DNA from: Flavobacteriaceae bacterium
GTDB taxonomy: Bacteria; Bacteroidota; Bacteroidia; Flavobacteriales; Flavobacteriaceae
Length of the DNA: 7,456 bases
NCBI GenBank assembly: GCA_016763215.1
Contig: JAESUF010000207.1
Coordinates: forward strand, 1 to 7,456
Direction of reading: 5' to 3'
Part shown: in pieces, positions 1 through 7,456 of the stretch
Layout of the letters: each line of letters starts with the position of its first letter
How positions within the stretch are numbered: position 1 is the stretch's first letter
Position numbers and translations under genes: made by a program
The notes under the pieces: model-generated
Told to the model about the DNA's origin: nothing
The model's input: the letters and a program-made list of their open reading frames with translations, nothing else
The model's database searches: none

Positions 1-40
1 TTCCTGAATCTATAATGTTTCCTTTCCCCTCAGTGCCCAT
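1..40 (-). other. Probable frameshift site and out-of-frame continuation of the TonB-dependent receptor
   Basis: In the receptor frame the last residues read FAWALRGKETL-stop. Shifting frame after the AWA codons gives codons for EGKGNIIDSG from 31 down to 2, open to the left edge. This matches the usual strand motif of these receptors (of the form GTEGKGNI-DSG) that precedes the last barrel strands. Adding one base restores a continuous reading: an extra G in the GGG run (CCC on the plus strand, 36-38) gives AWGTEGKGN, and an extra T (an A near 39-40 on the plus strand) gives ALGTEGKGN. The intact gene therefore probably extends beyond the window by several tens of residues. Whether this is a genuine mutation or a sequencing or assembly indel cannot be told here. 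Confidence 0.8.
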
Positions 41-2637
41 GCAAATATTCTATCAGAGAAGTAGTTAAATGTTAAAGTCCCTTGAATACTCTTGCCTCCG
101 TTGTATTCTTTTAAATAACTAACATCTGCATTCATTAACAGGTTAGAAGCTCCTGTTAATTCACTTTTTGTTTGTGAAAAATCAACACTCAAAGGAAAAC
201 CATTGACTGTAGTTTCATTAAACACCTTATCACCATTTAAGTCTTGATTTGTAGTTAACAATGAGATATTTATACCTCCCGTTAGCTTTGTCTTTAATGT
301 TTTCTCTTCCGTTTCTGTTTCTTGTTCAAAAAAGTTTTTTCTCATTTCAAACTCAATTCCATATGCAGTTGCTAAATCTCCAGAATTCACCCAACTCACA
401 TCATTGGATGCCGAGTTTATTGTTGCCTGGTTTATAGGGTCATTAATCAATCTTGCAAAACCTCCAATAGAAATAATTTCATCAGATTTTGGAAAGAAAT
501 CCCATTTTAAATCAAAATTATAGTTGGTCGATGATCTCAATGCCGGATTCCCAAGTGTTGTTAATGTTGCAGATTCATCAAACTGGAATGGGGCTCTTTC
601 TTTGAACTGTGGTAATGTGTATGTTTTGCTCGCTGCAAACTTTAGATTCTGTTTTTCATTTAATTCATACTTTAAAGAAACTGACGGGAGTATTTCAATT
701 TGATTTAAATCTGCATTCCCTCTACTGATAGAAGTATTATATACAATCGTCTGTTCTATTTGCTCCCCTCTAATACCAAATACAGCTGTAAGTTTAGGAG
801 AGAATGCATATTCTAATGTTGCGTAACTGGCGTGGATATTTTGTTCTCCACCGTATGTTTGCGGCGCTAGCACATCTGTACTTGTTCCTAAGCCACCTCT
901 AAATGTCCTAATCCCGAACAATCCTGAGTTAAAGTTTCCTTGATTAAAATAGCTATCAAGATTATAAATATTCGGTACAAAAGGTTGAGCAACTGCTGTA
1001 CCTCCACTATTATTAATTCTAAAGTTAAACTGTGTTGCTTCAAAATCTACAGTTTTAAACCTTCCACTATACCCTATAGTAAGTTTCCCTAAAAACTCGT
1101 CATCTTCGTTTTTATTAAACTTGTAAATTCCTGAAATATTCGCTGTTAATTCTTCGTCTTCTAAGTCTTGGAAAAACCTATGGTTATCAGAATCATTTAA
1201 TGTTAGTCTGAATGATTTTGGCCCGTTTGGTACATCCCAATCATCTGGTGTTAAAATAGTTTGTTTTCTGTTTGGTGTTCCACTTTTCACATAATTATAA
1301 GCGGCTCCCCAACTCAATTGAAAAGAGTCACTAATTCTATGATCCCCCAATAATTGGTGTACATATAATTCTGTTCTATCAAAAGTGGCTCTTTGAACAA
1401 ACGCACCTCCTTCTGGGGCATAATCAAAGATATCTATAACTCCAAAATACTCATCTTGTTTTTGACTAGAGGTATTAATTAGCAATGCATTGTACTGTAT
1501 TTCGTGGCCTTTATGTTTCAACCTGGCATTCCCCATTGCTGTGGTATTGGTTTCATAGATATAACTCTTGAAATCATAATCCCTACTCGCTACACCAGAA
1601 ACATTAACACTCCCTCTTGCAACACCTTCTCTAAATTTATAACCGTTATTAAAAGAAGTTACTGCAAACAAACTTAATTTTGTCTCTTCTCCTAATTCAT
1701 AAGAATCTCCCGCTTTTAAGGAGATACTTCCGTTAAAAGGAATAGAAGTTTCTACTCTATCCCAACTGGTTGTGAAATTGTAATTACTTAGAGGAAATGT
1801 TGGTATCGATGAATCATAAAACCCAGATTTATTAGGCCCATCATTCAAATAAAATTTATCTTGAGAAATAGCTTCAGAATTCACTCCTGTACTTAATCCA
1901 ATTTCAATAAACCCTTTCCCTTTGTAATTTTTCGAAGAGATATTAATATTTGCTCCACTAAAATCTCCATAATTTCTTGGATTGAATGTTTTATCAATAG
2001 AAATAAATTCGATAATATCTGTTGAAAAGATCCCTAAATCAATGTTCTTTTTTGATGGATTATTTGATGGTAATGGAAGTCCGTTTAACGTTGTCACATT
2101 GTAACGATCACCTAAACCTCTTACAAAAATACTTCCAGAACTTTCTTGTTTAGAAATCCCTGTTGTTTTTGTTAAGGCTTCTGTTACATTGCTAACTCCT
2201 TTCCTTTTTAATTCTTGTACTCCAATTTTCTGTTCAATTGTTACCGCTTTCTTTTGCTCTAAAAGTAGTGCAGACTCTTTTTCTTTACTTATGGTAGCCT
2301 TAATCGTTACAGTCTCCAGAGTCTCGCCCTCATCGGCACTCATTGTTTTATTTATGGTAGTTACCCCTCCTGCTTTTATAACTGTCATTTCCTCAAGAGT
2401 CTTGTACCCTAAAAAACTAAAAACGACTGTATAGTTCCCTGGCTTTACAGAAATGCTATATTCACCATTATCATCCGTCTCTACACCAATAACAGTTCCT
2501 TTAATTGCAACTGAAGCATAAGACAAAGGTTCATTGTTGGCGTCTTTGTCTAATAATTTCCCTTTAATTGTTCCTTTTTCTTGCGCATTTGCAAATTGAC
2601 AAACTATAACAGCAAGAATAAATACGATTTTTTTCAT
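10..2637 (-). CDS. TonB-dependent outer-membrane receptor with carboxypeptidase-regulatory-like N-terminal domain (C-terminus lost by probable frameshift)
   Basis: Outer-membrane beta-barrel transporter expected to import a bound substrate using TonB-ExbBD energy; the substrate cannot be read from sequence. Residues 1-18 are a signal peptide (MKKIVFILAV core, cleavage likely after ANA before Q19). Residues about 22-110 form a CarboxypepD_reg-like beta-sandwich (GTIKGKLLDKD, ASVAIKGT, DDNGEYSI, VVFSFLGYKT), typical of Bacteroidota receptors. Residues about 128-236 are the plug domain, with the conserved FVRGLGDRYNVTTLNGLPLP stretch at 171-190 and GDFSGANINISSK at 224-236. The remainder is barrel strands. 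The start is the ATG at 2637-2635, which gives a proper signal peptide. The frame ends at a TAG (12-10) in the middle of a normally conserved C-terminal region; see the separate frameshift entry. It is transcribed divergently from the response regulator across a 189-bp region with an operator-like array. No SusD partner is visible, though the downstream neighbour lies outside the window. Confidence 0.95.
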   Translation of the reverse strand: MKKIVFILAVIVCQFANAQEKGTIKGKLLDKDANNEPLSYASVAIKGTVIGVETDDNGEYSISVKPGNYTVVFSFLGYKTLEEMTVIKAGGVTTINKTMSADEGETLETVTIKATISKEKESALLLEQKKAVTIEQKIGVQELKRKGVSNVTEALTKTTGISKQESSGSIFVRGLGDRYNVTTLNGLPLPSNNPSKKNIDLGIFSTDIIEFISIDKTFNPRNYGDFSGANINISSKNYKGKGFIEIGLSTGVNSEAISQDKFYLNDGPNKSGFYDSSIPTFPLSNYNFTTSWDRVETSIPFNGSISLKAGDSYELGEETKLSLFAVTSFNNGYKFREGVARGSVNVSGVASRDYDFKSYIYETNTTAMGNARLKHKGHEIQYNALLINTSSQKQDEYFGVIDIFDYAPEGGAFVQRATFDRTELYVHQLLGDHRISDSFQLSWGAAYNYVKSGTPNRKQTILTPDDWDVPNGPKSFRLTLNDSDNHRFFQDLEDEELTANISGIYKFNKNEDDEFLGKLTIGYSGRFKTVDFEATQFNFRINNSGGTAVAQPFVPNIYNLDSYFNQGNFNSGLFGIRTFRGGLGTSTDVLAPQTYGGEQNIHASYATLEYAFSPKLTAVFGIRGEQIEQTIVYNTSISRGNADLNQIEILPSVSLKYELNEKQNLKFAASKTYTLPQFKERAPFQFDESATLTTLGNPALRSSTNYNFDLKWDFFPKSDEIISIGGFARLINDPINQATINSASNDVSWVNSGDLATAYGIEFEMRKNFFEQETETEEKTLKTKLTGGINISLLTTNQDLNGDKVFNETTVNGFPLSVDFSQTKSELTGASNLLMNADVSYLKEYNGGKSIQGTLTFNYFSDRIFAWALRGKETL

Positions 2638-2669: not shown

Positions 2670-2677
2670 CAAAAGTC
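2670..2677 (-). promoter_or_regulatory. Weak candidate -7 promoter element for the TonB-dependent receptor
   Basis: On the minus strand this octamer reads GACTTTTG, one mismatch from the Bacteroidota -7 consensus TAnnTTTG. It lies about 32 bp upstream of the receptor ATG and 20 bp from the near end of the direct-repeat array. I see no clear -33 TTTG element at the right distance, so it would probably depend on an activator. A single octamer with a mismatch can occur by chance. Confidence 0.35.
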
Positions 2678-2697
2678 AGCTTGTTTTGTAAAGAAAA

Positions 2698-2771
2698 TGT
2701 TACTCGCAGATTATGCTTCGGTTATTGCAATGTTAACGCAACGTTACGAGGTTAAATGATTGTTAAGCAGC
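2698..2771. promoter_or_regulatory. Array of 11-bp-spaced GTTA direct repeats; candidate operator for a PhoB/PhoP-type response regulator
   Basis: GTTA occurs six times in 74 bp, with one further GATTA-type copy in phase. Units begin at 2698 (TGTTA), 2709 (GATTA), 2720 (GGTTA), 2731 (TGTTA), 2742 (CGTTA), 2750 (GGTTA) and 2761 (TGTTA). Spacings are 11, 11, 11, 11, 8 and 11. Read on the minus strand, the units at 2731 and 2761 contain TTAACA and the unit at 2750 contains TTAACC. These resemble Bacillus PhoP boxes (TTAACA-like repeats) and cyanobacterial SphR boxes (CTTAACCT), and the 11-bp period is that of E. coli Pho-box half sites. The array lies in the divergent promoter region directly upstream of an OmpR/PhoB-family regulator gene, which makes that protein the obvious candidate ligand. 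Binding itself is inferred. Confidence 0.65.
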
Positions 2772-2793: not shown

Positions 2794-2801
2794 TACTTTT
2801 G
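2794..2801 (+). promoter_or_regulatory. Bacteroidota-type -7 promoter element for the two-component operon
   Basis: TACTTTTG matches the Bacteroidota sigma-ABfr -7 consensus TAnnTTTG exactly. Transcription would start near 2806-2808, leaving a leader of about 20 nt before the ATG at 2827. No good -33 element is seen. The space upstream is AT-rich, and the last repeat of the operator array ends 22 bp before this element, which fits activator-dependent or autoregulated transcription. Confidence 0.6.
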
Positions 2802-2826: not shown

Positions 2827-3525
2827 ATGAACAATAGTGAAATTAAGATTCTTTTAGTAGATGATGAGCCAGATATTTTAGAGATTGTAGGTTACAATTT
2901 AAAAAATGCGGGCTATCAAGTATACACTGCTGAAAATGGCATTGAAGCTGTTGCAGTTGCAAAAAAAATAATTCCTCATCTTATTTTATTAGATATTATG
3001 ATGCCAGAAATGGATGGTATTGAGGCTTGTGAAAAGATAAGAAGTACAAAAAAATTAGAAAATATTGTTATTGCTTTTTTAACTGCCAGAGGTGAAGATT
3101 ATTCTCAAGTTGCCGGTTTTGATGCTGGTGCCGATGATTACATTACCAAACCTGTAAAACCAAAGGTTTTAATGAGTAAAGTAAAATCATTGCTTCGTAG
3201 GTTAAAAACGGAAGAAACAACTGATACTACTCGAAAAATTGGAGATATTATTATTAACCGAGATGAGTATGTCGTATTCAAAGGAGATAAAAAAATATTC
3301 CTTCCTAGAAAAGAATTTGAATTGTTCTCTTTATTGACTTCTAAGCCTGGTAAAGTTTTTAAACGCGAAACGATTCTAGATACAGTTTGGGGAAATGAAG
3401 TTGTTGTTGGAGGAAGAACAATAGATGTCCACATCCGAAAATTGAGAGAAAAAATTGGTGACCACTATTTTAAAACTGTAAAAGGAGTTGGTTATAAATT
3501 TGTATTAGATGGAGCAGATAAATAA
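2827..3525 (+). CDS. OmpR/PhoB-family two-component response regulator (PhoB-like)
   Basis: Cytoplasmic DNA-binding response regulator of 232 residues, the usual length for the family. The receiver domain spans about residues 5-122: acidic pair D12-D13, phosphoacceptor D56 in LLDIMMPEMDG, T86 in FLTAR, Y105 switch residue and K108 in DDYITKP. All key residues are intact, so it should be phosphorylated normally. A linker of roughly 15 residues leads to a winged-helix Trans_reg_C domain (about 135-229), with the recognition-helix signature GGRTIDVHIRKLREKIG and the wing VKGVGYKF. The ATG at 2827 has no Shine-Dalgarno sequence, as is common in Bacteroidota. The histidine kinase gene follows 11 bp after the stop, so they are cognate partners. 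The operator array upstream suggests autoregulation. PhoB-like is the best description; phosphate as the input is inferred from that resemblance and the box geometry. Confidence 0.95.
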   Translation: MNNSEIKILLVDDEPDILEIVGYNLKNAGYQVYTAENGIEAVAVAKKIIPHLILLDIMMPEMDGIEACEKIRSTKKLENIVIAFLTARGEDYSQVAGFDAGADDYITKPVKPKVLMSKVKSLLRRLKTEETTDTTRKIGDIIINRDEYVVFKGDKKIFLPRKEFELFSLLTSKPGKVFKRETILDTVWGNEVVVGGRTIDVHIRKLREKIGDHYFKTVKGVGYKFVLDGADK

Positions 3526-3536
3526 CTTTGTCTATT

Positions 3537-4583
3537 ATGAGGTTTAAAAAAACATACTCTTTTGCTCTTTGGTCGTCACTATATTTAACAATCTTATCAT
3601 TACTTATAGCGGCTTTTCTATATTTATTTTTTTTTAAAGGCCAAGAATTAATTGGTCTACTTATATTTATTCTACTCATTTTTAGCACTTCCTTTTTTAT
3701 CATCCAATATCGGGCAGAACGTTTTATATACAACAGGATAAAAAAGATTTACGATAAGGTTTCTATTCTTGATGTTAATGATTTTGAAAGAAAATCTGCC
3801 ACCACAGACATAGAAGCACTTTCTAAAAGTGTACAAGATTACGTGGAAGGGAAACGAATTGAAATTCAAAATTTAACCGAGAGAGATTCTTTTCGAAGAG
3901 ATTTCTTAGGGAATGTTGCTCATGAACTAAAAACACCTTTGTTTACTGTTCAAGGGTATATATTAACATTAATTGAAGGGGCAGTAGAAGATGAAGTCAT
4001 TCGAACTAAATATCTAGATAGAGCAAGTAAAGGTGTAGAGCGCTTAACTGCAATTGTGAAAGATTTAGACATGATTGCTAAATTAGAAACTGAAGGGTTA
4101 AAAATGAACATTGAGGTTTATAATATTTTAGAGCTTGTTCAAAATGTTTTTGATTTATTCGAAATGCGAGCAAAGAAGAAAAACATTACACTAAAGTTTG
4201 ATCGAATGTATGAATTTCCATTTTTTGTTCGTGGAGATATTGAGCGTATAGAGCAAGTACTTATTAACCTTGTTGTAAATTCAATTAAATACGGTAGGGT
4301 AAACGGAGTTACAACTGTGGGGATTGATTCATATAATGAAGAAAAGTTTATCGTAAAAGTTTCCGATAATGGGGAAGGAATTAAACAAGAGCATTTGTCT
4401 CGACTTTTCGAACGTTTCTACAGAGTAGATCAGAGTAGGTCTAGAGAGCAAGGCGGCTCTGGACTTGGGTTATCCATTGTAAAACACATTATTGAAGCAC
4501 ATAATGAAACCATCCTTCTCAAAAGTTCTTTTGGAAAAGGTTCTGAGTTTTCATTTACACTGAAAAAAGGTCAAACAACTTAG
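3537..4583 (+). CDS. Membrane sensor histidine kinase (PhoR-like), partner of the upstream response regulator
   Basis: Inner-membrane kinase of 348 residues from the ATG at 3537. A TTG at 3528 would add three residues (MSI) but is less likely, because the ATG gives the natural basic N-terminus MRFKK before the first membrane helix. Two TM segments (about 9-33 and 38-57) are separated by only about four residues, so there is essentially no periplasmic sensor domain. Residues about 59-112 form a short helical linker that may be a degenerate HAMP region. The HisKA domain carries phosphoacceptor H129 in NVAHELKTPL. The HATPase_c domain has the N box (N244, N248 in NLVVNSIKYG), G1 DNGEGI (277-282), F box FERFYR (291-296) and G2 GGSGLGLSIV (306-315). 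All catalytic boxes are intact. The gene is co-transcribed with the regulator, and its last 29 bp overlap the convergent glycosyltransferase gene. Confidence 0.93.
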   Translation: MRFKKTYSFALWSSLYLTILSLLIAAFLYLFFFKGQELIGLLIFILLIFSTSFFIIQYRAERFIYNRIKKIYDKVSILDVNDFERKSATTDIEALSKSVQDYVEGKRIEIQNLTERDSFRRDFLGNVAHELKTPLFTVQGYILTLIEGAVEDEVIRTKYLDRASKGVERLTAIVKDLDMIAKLETEGLKMNIEVYNILELVQNVFDLFEMRAKKKNITLKFDRMYEFPFFVRGDIERIEQVLINLVVNSIKYGRVNGVTTVGIDSYNEEKFIVKVSDNGEGIKQEHLSRLFERFYRVDQSRSREQGGSGLGLSIVKHIIEAHNETILLKSSFGKGSEFSFTLKKGQTT

Positions 4584-5589
4584 GGTTTAGATTTCTTTTT
4601 TCATATTTAATTTCGAAATTGTAATCCAATAATTTTAAAACCTTCTTGTTAAGATCCTCTTCCTTTATACATCTAAAACAACCTTTATCCTGTAAATAAT
4701 TAGCCAAATATTCTTGTTCATTTTGACCTTTAGTCGGAATCAGCAGCGCTTTTTTATTCAAAGAGATTAAATCCATTACTGAAGAATATCCTGATCTACA
4801 AATAACAAATTTTGAACTATTTAATGCTGTTTCTAGCTCTTCAGATTGCATAAAATTATAGATTTTGAGATTTCCATATTCTTCAATCACTTGCTCCTCT
4901 TCTACCACCCCTCGGATTAGCCATGTTTTTTTTGAAGTCTCTTTAAATAATTGCTTTAGTTTTTCTTCTAATTGCGCTCTGTTAGGTTCCGGACCAGAAA
5001 GCACAATAAGTATATCAACATCTAACTCAAGGCTCCTGTATTTTAACCTACTCAAAACACCAATGTATTTCTGTCGCAATCTTTTCTTTGACATTGACAA
5101 CTTCCCAGAGAACTCAGAACCTTCATTATCTGGAATCCAACATTCATTAAATTTTTTAATCACCCTTTGGTGAAAGAAGTTTGTAAGTGGTGTAAAAATA
5201 CCCGACAATACATTAATTTGGTGTGTTATGTATACTGAAGGAATTTTTTTTGAATAGATCCCAAATCGATTGTCTGAAATAATTCCAACAACATCAGAAT
5301 TTTGATTCAAGTATCTATCTAAAATATTTTTTTCTTTTTTAACCGCTTTTAAAATTGAGAATGTTTTAAAAAAAAGACTCCTCTTTAAATTTTTCCCATA
5401 GGAAATATGATACGAAGGAAGGTCTAAGGTTTCTAAGTTTGGAAATTCTTTTTTTAAGAGTTTTAATGTATTTCCATCACTAGCAAGAACAGGTGTATAT
5501 TCTCTTTTTAACAATGCTATAATAATCGGAACGCAACGTGAGGCATGTCCTAATCCCCAATTTAACGGCGCTACAATTATTTTTTTCAT
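4555..5589 (-). CDS. MurG-like GT-B glycosyltransferase (glycosyltransferase family 28 type), acceptor unknown
   Basis: Predicted cytoplasmic or membrane-associated nucleotide-sugar glycosyltransferase of 344 residues with the two-Rossmann GT-B architecture. The N-terminal half opens with a first strand and glycine-rich loop, IIVAPLNWGLGHASR (4-18), as in MurG and related enzymes that bind the acceptor here. Other notable stretches are SDNRFG (105-110), THQI (122-125) and WIPDNEG (151-157). The C-terminal half begins at about 192 with ILIVLSGPEPNR and carries a donor-binding motif, CRSGYSSVMDLISLNKKALLIP (264-285) followed by QNEQEYLAN (289-297), equivalent to the MurG glycine/serine loop and Q-N segment. 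There is no signal peptide or TM segment. The start ATG lies only 4 bp after the purD stop, so translation may be coupled. The nearby WecA-family gene hints at a role in a surface glycan, but donor and acceptor cannot be determined. The 3' end overlaps the kinase gene. Confidence 0.85.
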   Translation of the reverse strand: MKKIIVAPLNWGLGHASRCVPIIIALLKREYTPVLASDGNTLKLLKKEFPNLETLDLPSYHISYGKNLKRSLFFKTFSILKAVKKEKNILDRYLNQNSDVVGIISDNRFGIYSKKIPSVYITHQINVLSGIFTPLTNFFHQRVIKKFNECWIPDNEGSEFSGKLSMSKKRLRQKYIGVLSRLKYRSLELDVDILIVLSGPEPNRAQLEEKLKQLFKETSKKTWLIRGVVEEEQVIEEYGNLKIYNFMQSEELETALNSSKFVICRSGYSSVMDLISLNKKALLIPTKGQNEQEYLANYLQDKGCFRCIKEEDLNKKVLKLLDYNFEIKYEKRNLNPKLFDLFSV

Positions 5590-6893: not shown

Positions 6894-7456
6894 TCATTGT
6901 AAATTCTTTTTTGAAGCAAATTTCACAAAAACAACATAAAACAATAAAAACATTGTTATATATACTCCTAGCAATAACCGAGAATTATAAATTTTTGCTG
7001 ATGCTATAAAAAGAATAATTGTAATTATAATACTAAATAAGACAATTAAAACACTTGACTTTATATGAGAATTCCCAAGGTTTAAAAGAATATGATGGGT
7101 GTGATTGTTATCTGCCAAAAATGGATTTCTCTTATTCAATATTCTTAAGATAAATACTCTAGTCATATCAAAAAATGGAAAAACTAAGATGGCTATAACT
7201 ATAAAAATTGAATGATGAGGTACAACCGAAATTGTTTCATAATCTTGAGCTCCTAGTGATAAAAACTTAACAGACATTACTGCAATCGTAAAACCAAGAA
7301 TGAGAGATCCTGTATCTCCCATAAAAATCTTCTTCTTTGTTGAAAAATTAAGGCGTAAAAAAGCGATTAACGCACCTACCATTCCTAAGCATATCACTAC
7401 AAAAAAGGGCTCATCTAATAGGTAGTATACATATCCAAAACAAGATAGAATAACAA
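6894..7456 (-). CDS. WecA/TagO/MraY-family polyprenyl-phosphate sugar-1-phosphate transferase, C-terminal part (cut by window edge)
   Basis: Integral inner-membrane enzyme that transfers a sugar-1-phosphate (often GlcNAc-1-P) from a UDP-sugar to undecaprenyl phosphate, starting surface-polysaccharide synthesis. The frame is open to the right edge. Residues before the GTG at 7397 (FGYVYYLLDEPFFV) continue the same hydrophobic protein, so that GTG is internal and the true start is outside the window. Family signatures visible: a loop before KIFMGDTGSLILG (conserved MGD-GS motif), FPFFDMTRVFILR, and NPFLADNNHTHHILLNLG, matching the cytoplasmic H-x-HH motif of WecA/TagO. Four to six hydrophobic segments are visible, ending in a basic tail, SKKNLQ. 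The missing N-terminal part should hold the DD and DGLAG-type catalytic motifs. The HTHH motif points to the WecA/TagO branch rather than MraY proper. It leads the purD-glycosyltransferase run. Confidence 0.9.
   Translation of the reverse strand, partial: VILSCFGYVYYLLDEPFFVVICLGMVGALIAFLRLNFSTKKKIFMGDTGSLILGFTIAVMSVKFLSLGAQDYETISVVPHHSIFIVIAILVFPFFDMTRVFILRILNKRNPFLADNNHTHHILLNLGNSHIKSSVLIVLFSIIITIILFIASAKIYNSRLLLGVYITMFLLFYVVFVKFASKKNLQ

Follow-up and report, generated by a model that had tools for sequence, protein, structure and literature searches.

The intergenic region between a TonB-dependent receptor gene and a PhoB-like regulator gene of a flavobacterium carries an array of direct repeats that is very probably a flavobacterial Pho box, bound by the neighbouring PhoB-like regulator and acting mainly to activate the receptor gene on the minus strand. 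The window analysed here is a stretch of 7,456 bp from a Flavobacteriaceae assembly (contig JAESUF010000207.1, forward strand). An original prediction, made from the letters of this DNA, had read the array as the operator of the adjacent PhoB-type regulator; the conservation of the units and their phase, together with a link to phosphate genes, supports that reading, and from these observations we infer binding. The array has those features of a Pho box that can be judged from sequence, and it appears to represent a new form, with a TAAC unit, a register to the TTTG of a -7 element, and a grid of eight units with one 8-bp break. The features of the window on which the analysis draws are as follows.

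10 to 2637, minus strand: TonB-dependent receptor gene (domain matches to CarbopepD_reg_2 and Plug), the predicted main target
2670 to 2677, minus strand: GACTTTTG, -7-like element of the receptor promoter; TTTG at -18 from the unit-placed grid in 16/17 loci
2688 to 2691, minus strand: unit 0 (GTAA on the plus strand, TTAC on the minus), degenerate, adjoining the receptor promoter; offset 0, at least 3/4 matches to GTTA in 13/17 loci
2699 to 2702, minus strand: unit 1 (GTTA, or TAAC); offset 11, 17/17 loci, an offset used as anchor
2710 to 2713, minus strand: unit 2 (ATTA); offset 22, 17/17 loci, an offset used as anchor
2721 to 2724, minus strand: unit 3 (GTTA), the weakest of the grid; offset 33, 10/17 loci
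2732 to 2735, minus strand: unit 4 (GTTA); offset 44, 16/17 loci
2743 to 2746, minus strand: unit 5 (GTTA); offset 55, 16/17 loci
2751 to 2754, minus strand: unit 6 (GTTA), after the 8-bp register break; offset 63, 13/17 loci
2762 to 2765, minus strand: unit 7 (GTTA), end of the phoB-proximal pair; offset 74, 13/17 loci
2794 to 2801, plus strand: TACTTTTG, -7-like element of the phoB/phoR promoter; its TA follows the GTTA of unit 7 by 32 bp
2827 to 3525, plus strand: PhoB-like response regulator gene (Response_reg and Trans_reg_C; Pfam and NCBIfam)
3528 to 4583, plus strand: PhoR/PnpS-like histidine kinase gene (HisKA and HATPase_c); PnpS and PhoR are its best NCBIfam models, each with a score below the cut-off

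Phased repeats in the intergenic region

The region between the receptor gene (10-2637, minus strand) and the regulator gene (2827-3525, plus strand) spans 189 bp. GTTA tetramers start at 2699, 2721, 2732, 2743, 2751 and 2762, and the odd copy GATTA (2709-2713) supplies an in-phase ATTA at 2710. The original prediction had placed the GTTA starts one base too low, whereas its 11-bp steps and its single 8-bp step were right; it had overlooked a degenerate eighth unit, GTAA at 2688, which lies 11 bp before 2699 and is weaker than the rest. The five consecutive units from 2699 agree with GTTA at 19 of 20 positions. This value was reached in none of 5,000 dinucleotide shuffles of the 189-bp intergenic region (best 15), in none of 300 shuffles of the whole window (best 17), and in none of 300 shuffles when any tetramer and any period from 6 to 30 were permitted (best 18), confirming that the array of phased repeats is real.

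Conservation of the grid among relatives

Using the regulator protein as query, we retrieved 80 loci, among which L001-L031, L033, L034 and L053 belong to Flavobacteriaceae or close relatives by their record titles. GTTA pairs were counted in the 200 bp before the regulator gene in 34 sequences, namely the window and 33 of these loci (L004, with 51 bp only, was excluded, and L032 and the other loci were not used). Thirty pairs stood at a distance of 11 bp, against a mean of 2.4 per other distance, which is the largest excess among 256 tetramers and 36 distances; further peaks were found at distances of 33 (20 pairs), 44 (18), 19 (13) and 22 (12). TAAC on the plus strand gave just 2 pairs at 11 bp in the same 34 regions, with no 11-bp peak, and the repeats are therefore direct and one-sided.

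We then scored a receptor-side box in 36 sequences (the window, L001-L034 and L053; L004 gave no candidate), with TTTG obligatory. Eighteen sequences scored at least 8/12, and the 17 with a divergent receptor gene were aligned; L029 (score 8, receptor not found) was dropped, and L018, in which the receptor-like gene has the other orientation, scored 7. The aligned set comprises the window, Kordia, Christiangramia, Salegentibacter, Mesonia, family-level records and many Flavobacterium, so the loci are not independent. The alignment was gap-free and anchored on the receptor-side unit at offsets 0, 11 and 22, the remaining offsets being free. GTTA matches peaked at offsets 0, 11, 22, 33, 44, 55, 63 and 74, giving tandem direct repeats with steps of 11, 11, 11, 11, 11, 8 and 11 bp and hence the 11-bp period of a Pho box. 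The off-grid offset 68 also reached 10/17, owing to a second TTA within the Flavobacterium sequence ATTAAATTA; the next-best off-grid offsets reached 6/17 and 5/17. The 8-bp step before the last pair gave at least 7/8 matches in 12/17 loci, and any other step from 3 to 24 did so in at most one.

Across the 17 loci, unit columns had a mean pairwise identity of 0.77, as against 0.43 for spacers and 0.33 for the flank beyond the array; the window taken against each of the other 16 loci showed identities of 0.59-0.91 in units and 0.28-0.52 in spacers. An alignment of orthologous regions had been proposed as a check on the original prediction, and units and 11-bp phase were indeed kept across the 17 loci while the spacers drifted. 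The distance from the grid to the regulator start varies from 132 to 199 bp, so that the conservation of the grid does not merely reflect a lack of divergence. L031 leaves the grid past offset 44, and the last pair is absent in L015, L016 and L017.

The receptor-type box was absent from 20 loci outside the main set (L032, L035-L052 and L054; best score 7/12), and pairs were few. In one of these, L042, a Bacteroidales metagenome-assembled genome with a receptor-like gene upstream, three [AG]TTA/GTTA units stand in 11-bp phase in the 300 bp ahead of the regulator match, with pairs at -180 and -169; this is perhaps the same kind of operator outside Flavobacteriaceae. No good array or pair precedes the regulator relative in L018, L019, L032 and L033 (from Psychroflexus, Zeaxanthinibacter, Plebeiobacterium and a Flavobacteriaceae metagenome-assembled genome), which counts as evidence against our main reading.

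Register to the receptor promoter

The units are oriented toward the receptor gene as TAAC-N7-TAAC-N7-TTAC-N14-TTTG, and the TTTG belongs to a -7-like element whose Bacteroidota consensus we take to be TAnnTTTG. Because TTTG was obligatory in the first selection of loci, its invariance in that alignment arises by construction. We therefore repeated the placement of the grid from the units only, ignoring TTTG. The grid fell in the same place in 16/17 loci (L015 gave a tie and shifts by 11), and TTTG was found at -18 in 16/17 loci, as compared with 1 at -29 and 2 at -4. The array thus holds a fixed position 18 bp upstream of a core promoter element in 16 of the 17 receptor loci, as is expected of a Pho box. 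Its polarity and its distance to the -7 element point to the receptor promoter, on the minus strand, as the main promoter served.

The phoB-side pair

Of 36 sequences, 32 carry a pair of the form NTTA-11-GTTA in the 200 bp that precede the regulator gene; the pair is absent in L004 (which has too little sequence), L019, L032 and L033, the copy in L018 is poor, and the pair in L021 is the receptor-side one. In 23 of these 32, among them the window, TAnnTTT follows the pair at a distance of 31-33 or 41-43 bp, a count to be read in the knowledge that so short a pattern is common in AT-rich DNA. The phoB-proximal pair is retained where a divergent receptor gene is lacking (L003, L008), and it is also kept in L005 and L012, where the upstream gene is co-directional with phoB and, in L012, encodes a PiT-type phosphate transporter. 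On these grounds the last pair, beyond the 8-bp break, most likely serves a putative autoregulation of phoBR. The last pair may also be read in the opposite polarity, since GTTAAC in Flavobacterium is palindromic.

One explanation for the shared geometry is that the intergenic region is a single rigid eight-unit operator whose whole layout is under selection, and on which one PhoB filament with a defined discontinuity would couple a strong receptor promoter to a weaker phoBR promoter; we consider this a serious possibility, at slightly less than even confidence. If it were true, uptake through an outer-membrane, phosphate-scavenging receptor and the level of the regulator would respond jointly across several Flavobacteriaceae genera. 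One may postulate an alternative scenario of two independent adjoining Pho boxes, a three-unit receptor box and a phoB pair (or a GTTA-8-ATTA-11-GTTA triple), with the middle units of the window being incidental. In its favour, the phoB-proximal pair occurs without a divergent receptor (L003, L005, L008) and behind a co-directional gene (L005, L012); unit 3 is the weakest (10/17), no in-register last pair is seen in L015, L016, L017 and L031, and receptor boxes of Tenacibaculum occur with no regulator found in the 3-kb locus. The distance from one half to the other is nevertheless base-exact in most loci, with offsets 44, 55, 63 and 74 occupied in 16, 16, 13 and 13 of 17 even though 132-199 bp separate the grid from the regulator start, and we hold the two-box scenario only tentatively, at a confidence somewhat below even.

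The regulator and its kinase

The neighbouring regulator combines a receiver domain with a winged-helix Trans_reg_C domain and is paired with a HisKA kinase, as is expected of PhoB. The PhoB equivalog models of NCBIfam rank first and second for this protein, although both scores miss their cut-offs (TIGR02154, 213.7 of 296.2 bits; NF053854, 200.3 of 270 bits). In the genomes of six relatives the best TIGR02154 match was in every case the regulator at this locus, and the cut-off was passed in none. As the cut-offs are not reached, the name PhoB rests on kinship and regulon; the protein probably acts as PhoB does and is the leading candidate for that role, while falling short of the curated NCBIfam test.

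Regulators of the OmpR family often use direct repeats of 10-11 bp, and several PhoB-like regulators occur per genome (F. panici has the most, with 6 TIGR02154 matches at E <= 1e-45), so the array might be the target of a different OmpR-family regulator encoded in the same genome. We consider this improbable, as the array or the pair adjoins this particular regulator in 32/36 sequences, the best match to the PhoB model is at this locus in 6/6 genomes, and the wider set of boxes lies at phosphate transport genes.

Boxes before phosphate genes

Loci of phosphate-related families in the genomes of 19 relatives were compared with those of general TonB receptors (30 loci, among the matches listed). 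We called a box where two adjacent units with at least 7/8 matches had TTTG or TTCG at the in-register spacing (+-1 bp) and lay no more than 150 bp upstream of the ORF or 45 bp inside it. This looser rule was chosen after earlier results on the same genes, and counts by a strict rule (TTTG, exact spacing) are given alongside, as are counts of a perfect TAAC-N7-TAAC pair with no -7 rule.

Loci with a box (loose rule; strict rule; perfect pair)
PiT-fusion: 9/14; 7/14; 9/14
DUF47: 6/7; 0/7; 4/7
OprP-like, E < 1e-10: 6/15; 6/15; 0/15
OprP-like, weaker: 2/12; 1/12; 1/12
PhoX: 1/10; 1/10; 0/10
PstS-like, over 70 bits: 1/7; 0/7; 0/7
PBP_like_2, weaker: 1/17; 0/17; 0/17
PiT, short type: 0/9; 0/9; 0/9
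Control, general TonB receptors (among the matches listed): 0/29; 0/29; 0/29
Control, other ORFs: 1/107; 0/107; 0/107

Under the loose rule, boxes preceded PiT-fusion, DUF47 and OprP-like genes (8/27 for the last group as a whole) and were mostly absent before PhoX, PstS-like and weaker PBP_like_2 genes. None preceded the nine short-type PiT genes, seven of which lie directly behind a DUF47 gene. The sole positive among the control ORFs is the boxed PstS-like gene again, reached from an adjacent locus, and mononucleotide shuffles reached the box threshold in 0.5-2.9% of cases. The register to TTTG was kept within 1 bp before PiT, OprP and DUF47 genes; it was exact for 7/14 PiT-fusion and 7/27 OprP-like genes and for 0/7 DUF47 genes, in whose boxes TTTG lies one base nearer than 18 bp or reads TTCG. 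Left out of the counts were L132 (no ORF), L219, L126, L143 and L179-L185 (a repeat gene, or start absent), and PF01384 matches without a locus.

The occurrence of boxes before phosphate-regulon genes is therefore not random, PhoX (1/10) and PstS-like genes (1/7) being the exceptions. A scan of the host genome for further copies had been proposed as a check on the original prediction; made in relatives, it showed that matches preceded phosphate transport genes far more often than control genes; neither of the two outcomes that would have counted against the prediction, a lack of conservation and randomly scattered matches, was observed. As marker families PhoX and PBP_like_2 gave little yield and were set aside; most PBP_like_2 matches are weak and may not be Pst. 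Separately, six PstS-like PBP_like_2 genes of Flavobacterium and its kin (L187-L191, L201) lack a box, unlike the gene in L186 beside an OprP gene, and may serve another purpose.

We also scanned genomes with two box models. Both scans were non-exhaustive, and all figures refer to the matches listed (150 first-pass candidates scored per genome). The first model, R1, was built from the 17 receptor boxes and gave at least 28 matches at E <= 10 in F. panici, of which one is the training copy, 17 fall within longer ORFs and 10 lie elsewhere. Among the matches listed, five of these ten precede genes for DUF47, an OprP porin, another TonB receptor, a PF04101 glycosyltransferase (at a distance of about 120 bp) and a lipoprotein-like protein (no Pfam match, adjoining the phoB locus); two more stand ahead of MFS and AraC genes, and L089, L091 and L093 have no clear target. 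Given the 17 matches inside ORFs, R1 was rejected as overfitted to receptor promoters.

The second model, R2, was built from 27 boxes and was used on six genomes of Tenacibaculum, the genus of L003. At E <= 0.01 it gave at least 12 matches, one of which (L240) had been in the training set as L135; L255 and L258, which are short loci, were not placed. Among the matches listed, three lie directly before OprP porin genes, one before a PiT gene, four before receptors of the window's type, one more in a receptor/OprP intergenic region and one before another TonB receptor; of the remaining two, the first stands 330 bp ahead of a DUF1304 gene and the second falls within an ORF of the opposite strand. 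At least 119 matches were obtained at E <= 1, of which 30 were inspected; 7 of the 15 inspected above E = 0.02 lie inside ORFs. The boxed Tenacibaculum receptors (L242, L243, L245, L247) are 40-58% identical to that of the window over about 470-500 N-terminal residues. In Tenacibaculum genomes G020 and G024 (L241, L243, L246, L247, L253), a receptor gene of this type and an OprP porin gene are divergently arranged and boxes serve either side; in G020 the two are followed by a PiT gene that has a box of its own. A receptor of the window's type travels with either phoBR or a porin.

The match before the DUF1304 gene (L244; G023:C188:17338-17378) is a strong box (E = 2.4e-4) whose target is possibly a small unlisted gene. 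A Tenacibaculum gene at L261:1574-3041, with Endonuclease_1, LTD and fn3 domains, carries a weak promoter box (E = 0.064); its domain set is that of EndA1/EndA2, which are Pi-induced in F. johnsoniae according to the text covered of PMC8115612. Within the window, the box score gave a weak minus-strand candidate at 6926-6973 (one perfect unit, one 3/4), which lies upstream of purD in the final part of the gene before it, as well as a plus-strand match at 2674-2720 within the array; both are at chance level. The PF04101 glycosyltransferase gene of the window (4555-5589, minus strand) lies directly behind purD, and its end shares 29 bp with the histidine kinase gene.

That the array reflects chance or composition, as AT-rich DNA with phased TTA that is bent or bound by a nucleoid protein, would suit a window of 33% GC in which TTA is common, yet it can practically be dismissed given 0/5000 shuffles, plus-strand TAAC without an 11-bp peak (2 pairs) and control genes without boxes, and it is contradicted by the conservation of the grid over 17 loci with TTTG at -18 in 16/17.

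Relation to known Pho boxes and phosphate responses

The PhoP box of Bacillus subtilis consists of TTAACA-like repeats, and the minus-strand TAACA/TTACA units here are similar to these and are likewise in tandem, although Bacillus belongs to another phylum with another promoter type and the polarity here points away from the regulator gene. Pho boxes are defined in PMC4415409, in the part covered, as 11-nt direct repeats bound head-to-tail. Such repeats lie upstream of phosphate genes in the E. coli PhoB system, and the array described here adjoins a PhoB-like gene; its unit is TAAC(A) rather than CTGTCAT, its register is to a Bacteroidota-type -7 element, and it has eight units with one 8-bp step as opposed to two per box in E. 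coli. The PhoP operators of Streptomyces coelicolor share with this array direct-repeat units of variable conservation, number and arrangement, and are classed as simple or complex (PMC4415409), whereas their consensus is GTTCACC. We found no Pho box sequence for Flavobacteriaceae in the literature searched, in which subscription journals are thinly covered. Putative Pho boxes are reported at plcP clusters of marine bacteria, with no flavobacterial sequence in the text covered, although the supplements may hold some (PMC4796936); in the part of PMC3547664 covered, the term 'Pho box' appears once, in a passage that gives no box sequence. The main text of PMC8115612, supplements aside, contains neither 'Pho box' nor 'promoter' in the part covered.

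The PhoBR locus of F. johnsoniae has the same neighbours as the window (receptor, PhoB, PhoR and PF04101 glycosyltransferase), together with OprP and lipoprotein genes that are absent from the window. In the text covered of PMC8115612, Pi depletion raised the TonB receptor Fjoh_0545 by +8.02, phoB (Fjoh_0544) by +3.06, PhoR by +0.76, the glycosyltransferase Fjoh_0541 by +5.42 and the lipoproteins by +9.91 and +7.59; the counterpart, by position and domain, of the window's glycosyltransferase is thus Pi-induced. Strong receptor induction with weaker phoB induction would agree with a canonical box at the receptor promoter and, at phoB, one that stands farther off. Bacteroides fragilis lacking PhoB shows only trace expression of pstC in the part of PMC3547664 covered.

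Other observations run counter to our reading. OprP of F. johnsoniae (Fjoh_0542) was not induced (-1.3, not significant; PMC8115612, part covered), yet the F. panici porin gene adjoining phoBR has a box; conversely, a box precedes only 1/10 PhoX genes, yet the PhoX-like Fjoh_2478 was strongly induced (same source). In Riemerella, a mutant of a PhoR-type system showed pstS raised 8-fold (PMC5399024, part covered), which does not fit simple activation; this system is likened here to PhoR with no implication of orthology.

A model for receptor activation

Taking the array as a Pho box of the neighbouring regulator, we propose that the phosphorylated PhoB-like regulator (2827-3525) would bind the minus-strand TAAC units head-to-tail, with one monomer per 11 bp. 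The last unit on the receptor side starts 18 bp before TTTG; a regulator bound there would occupy the place of a would-be -33 element and recruit RNA polymerase, activating the receptor gene as PhoB does in E. coli. The last pair, past the 8-bp break and 32 bp before the regulator's own -7 element, would mediate autoregulation of phoBR.

The near base-exact grid of eight units with its 8-bp break raises a testable question, namely how PhoB filaments behave at a register break between divergent promoters. The proposed form of the box, TAAC-N7-TAAC(-N7-TTAC) at -40/-29/-18 from TTTG, would provide a concrete and testable sequence code for the phosphate regulon of Flavobacteriaceae, which are phosphorus scavengers in sea and soil, and membership of the regulon could be proposed from such a code, including for TonB receptors and a nuclease of unknown regulation.
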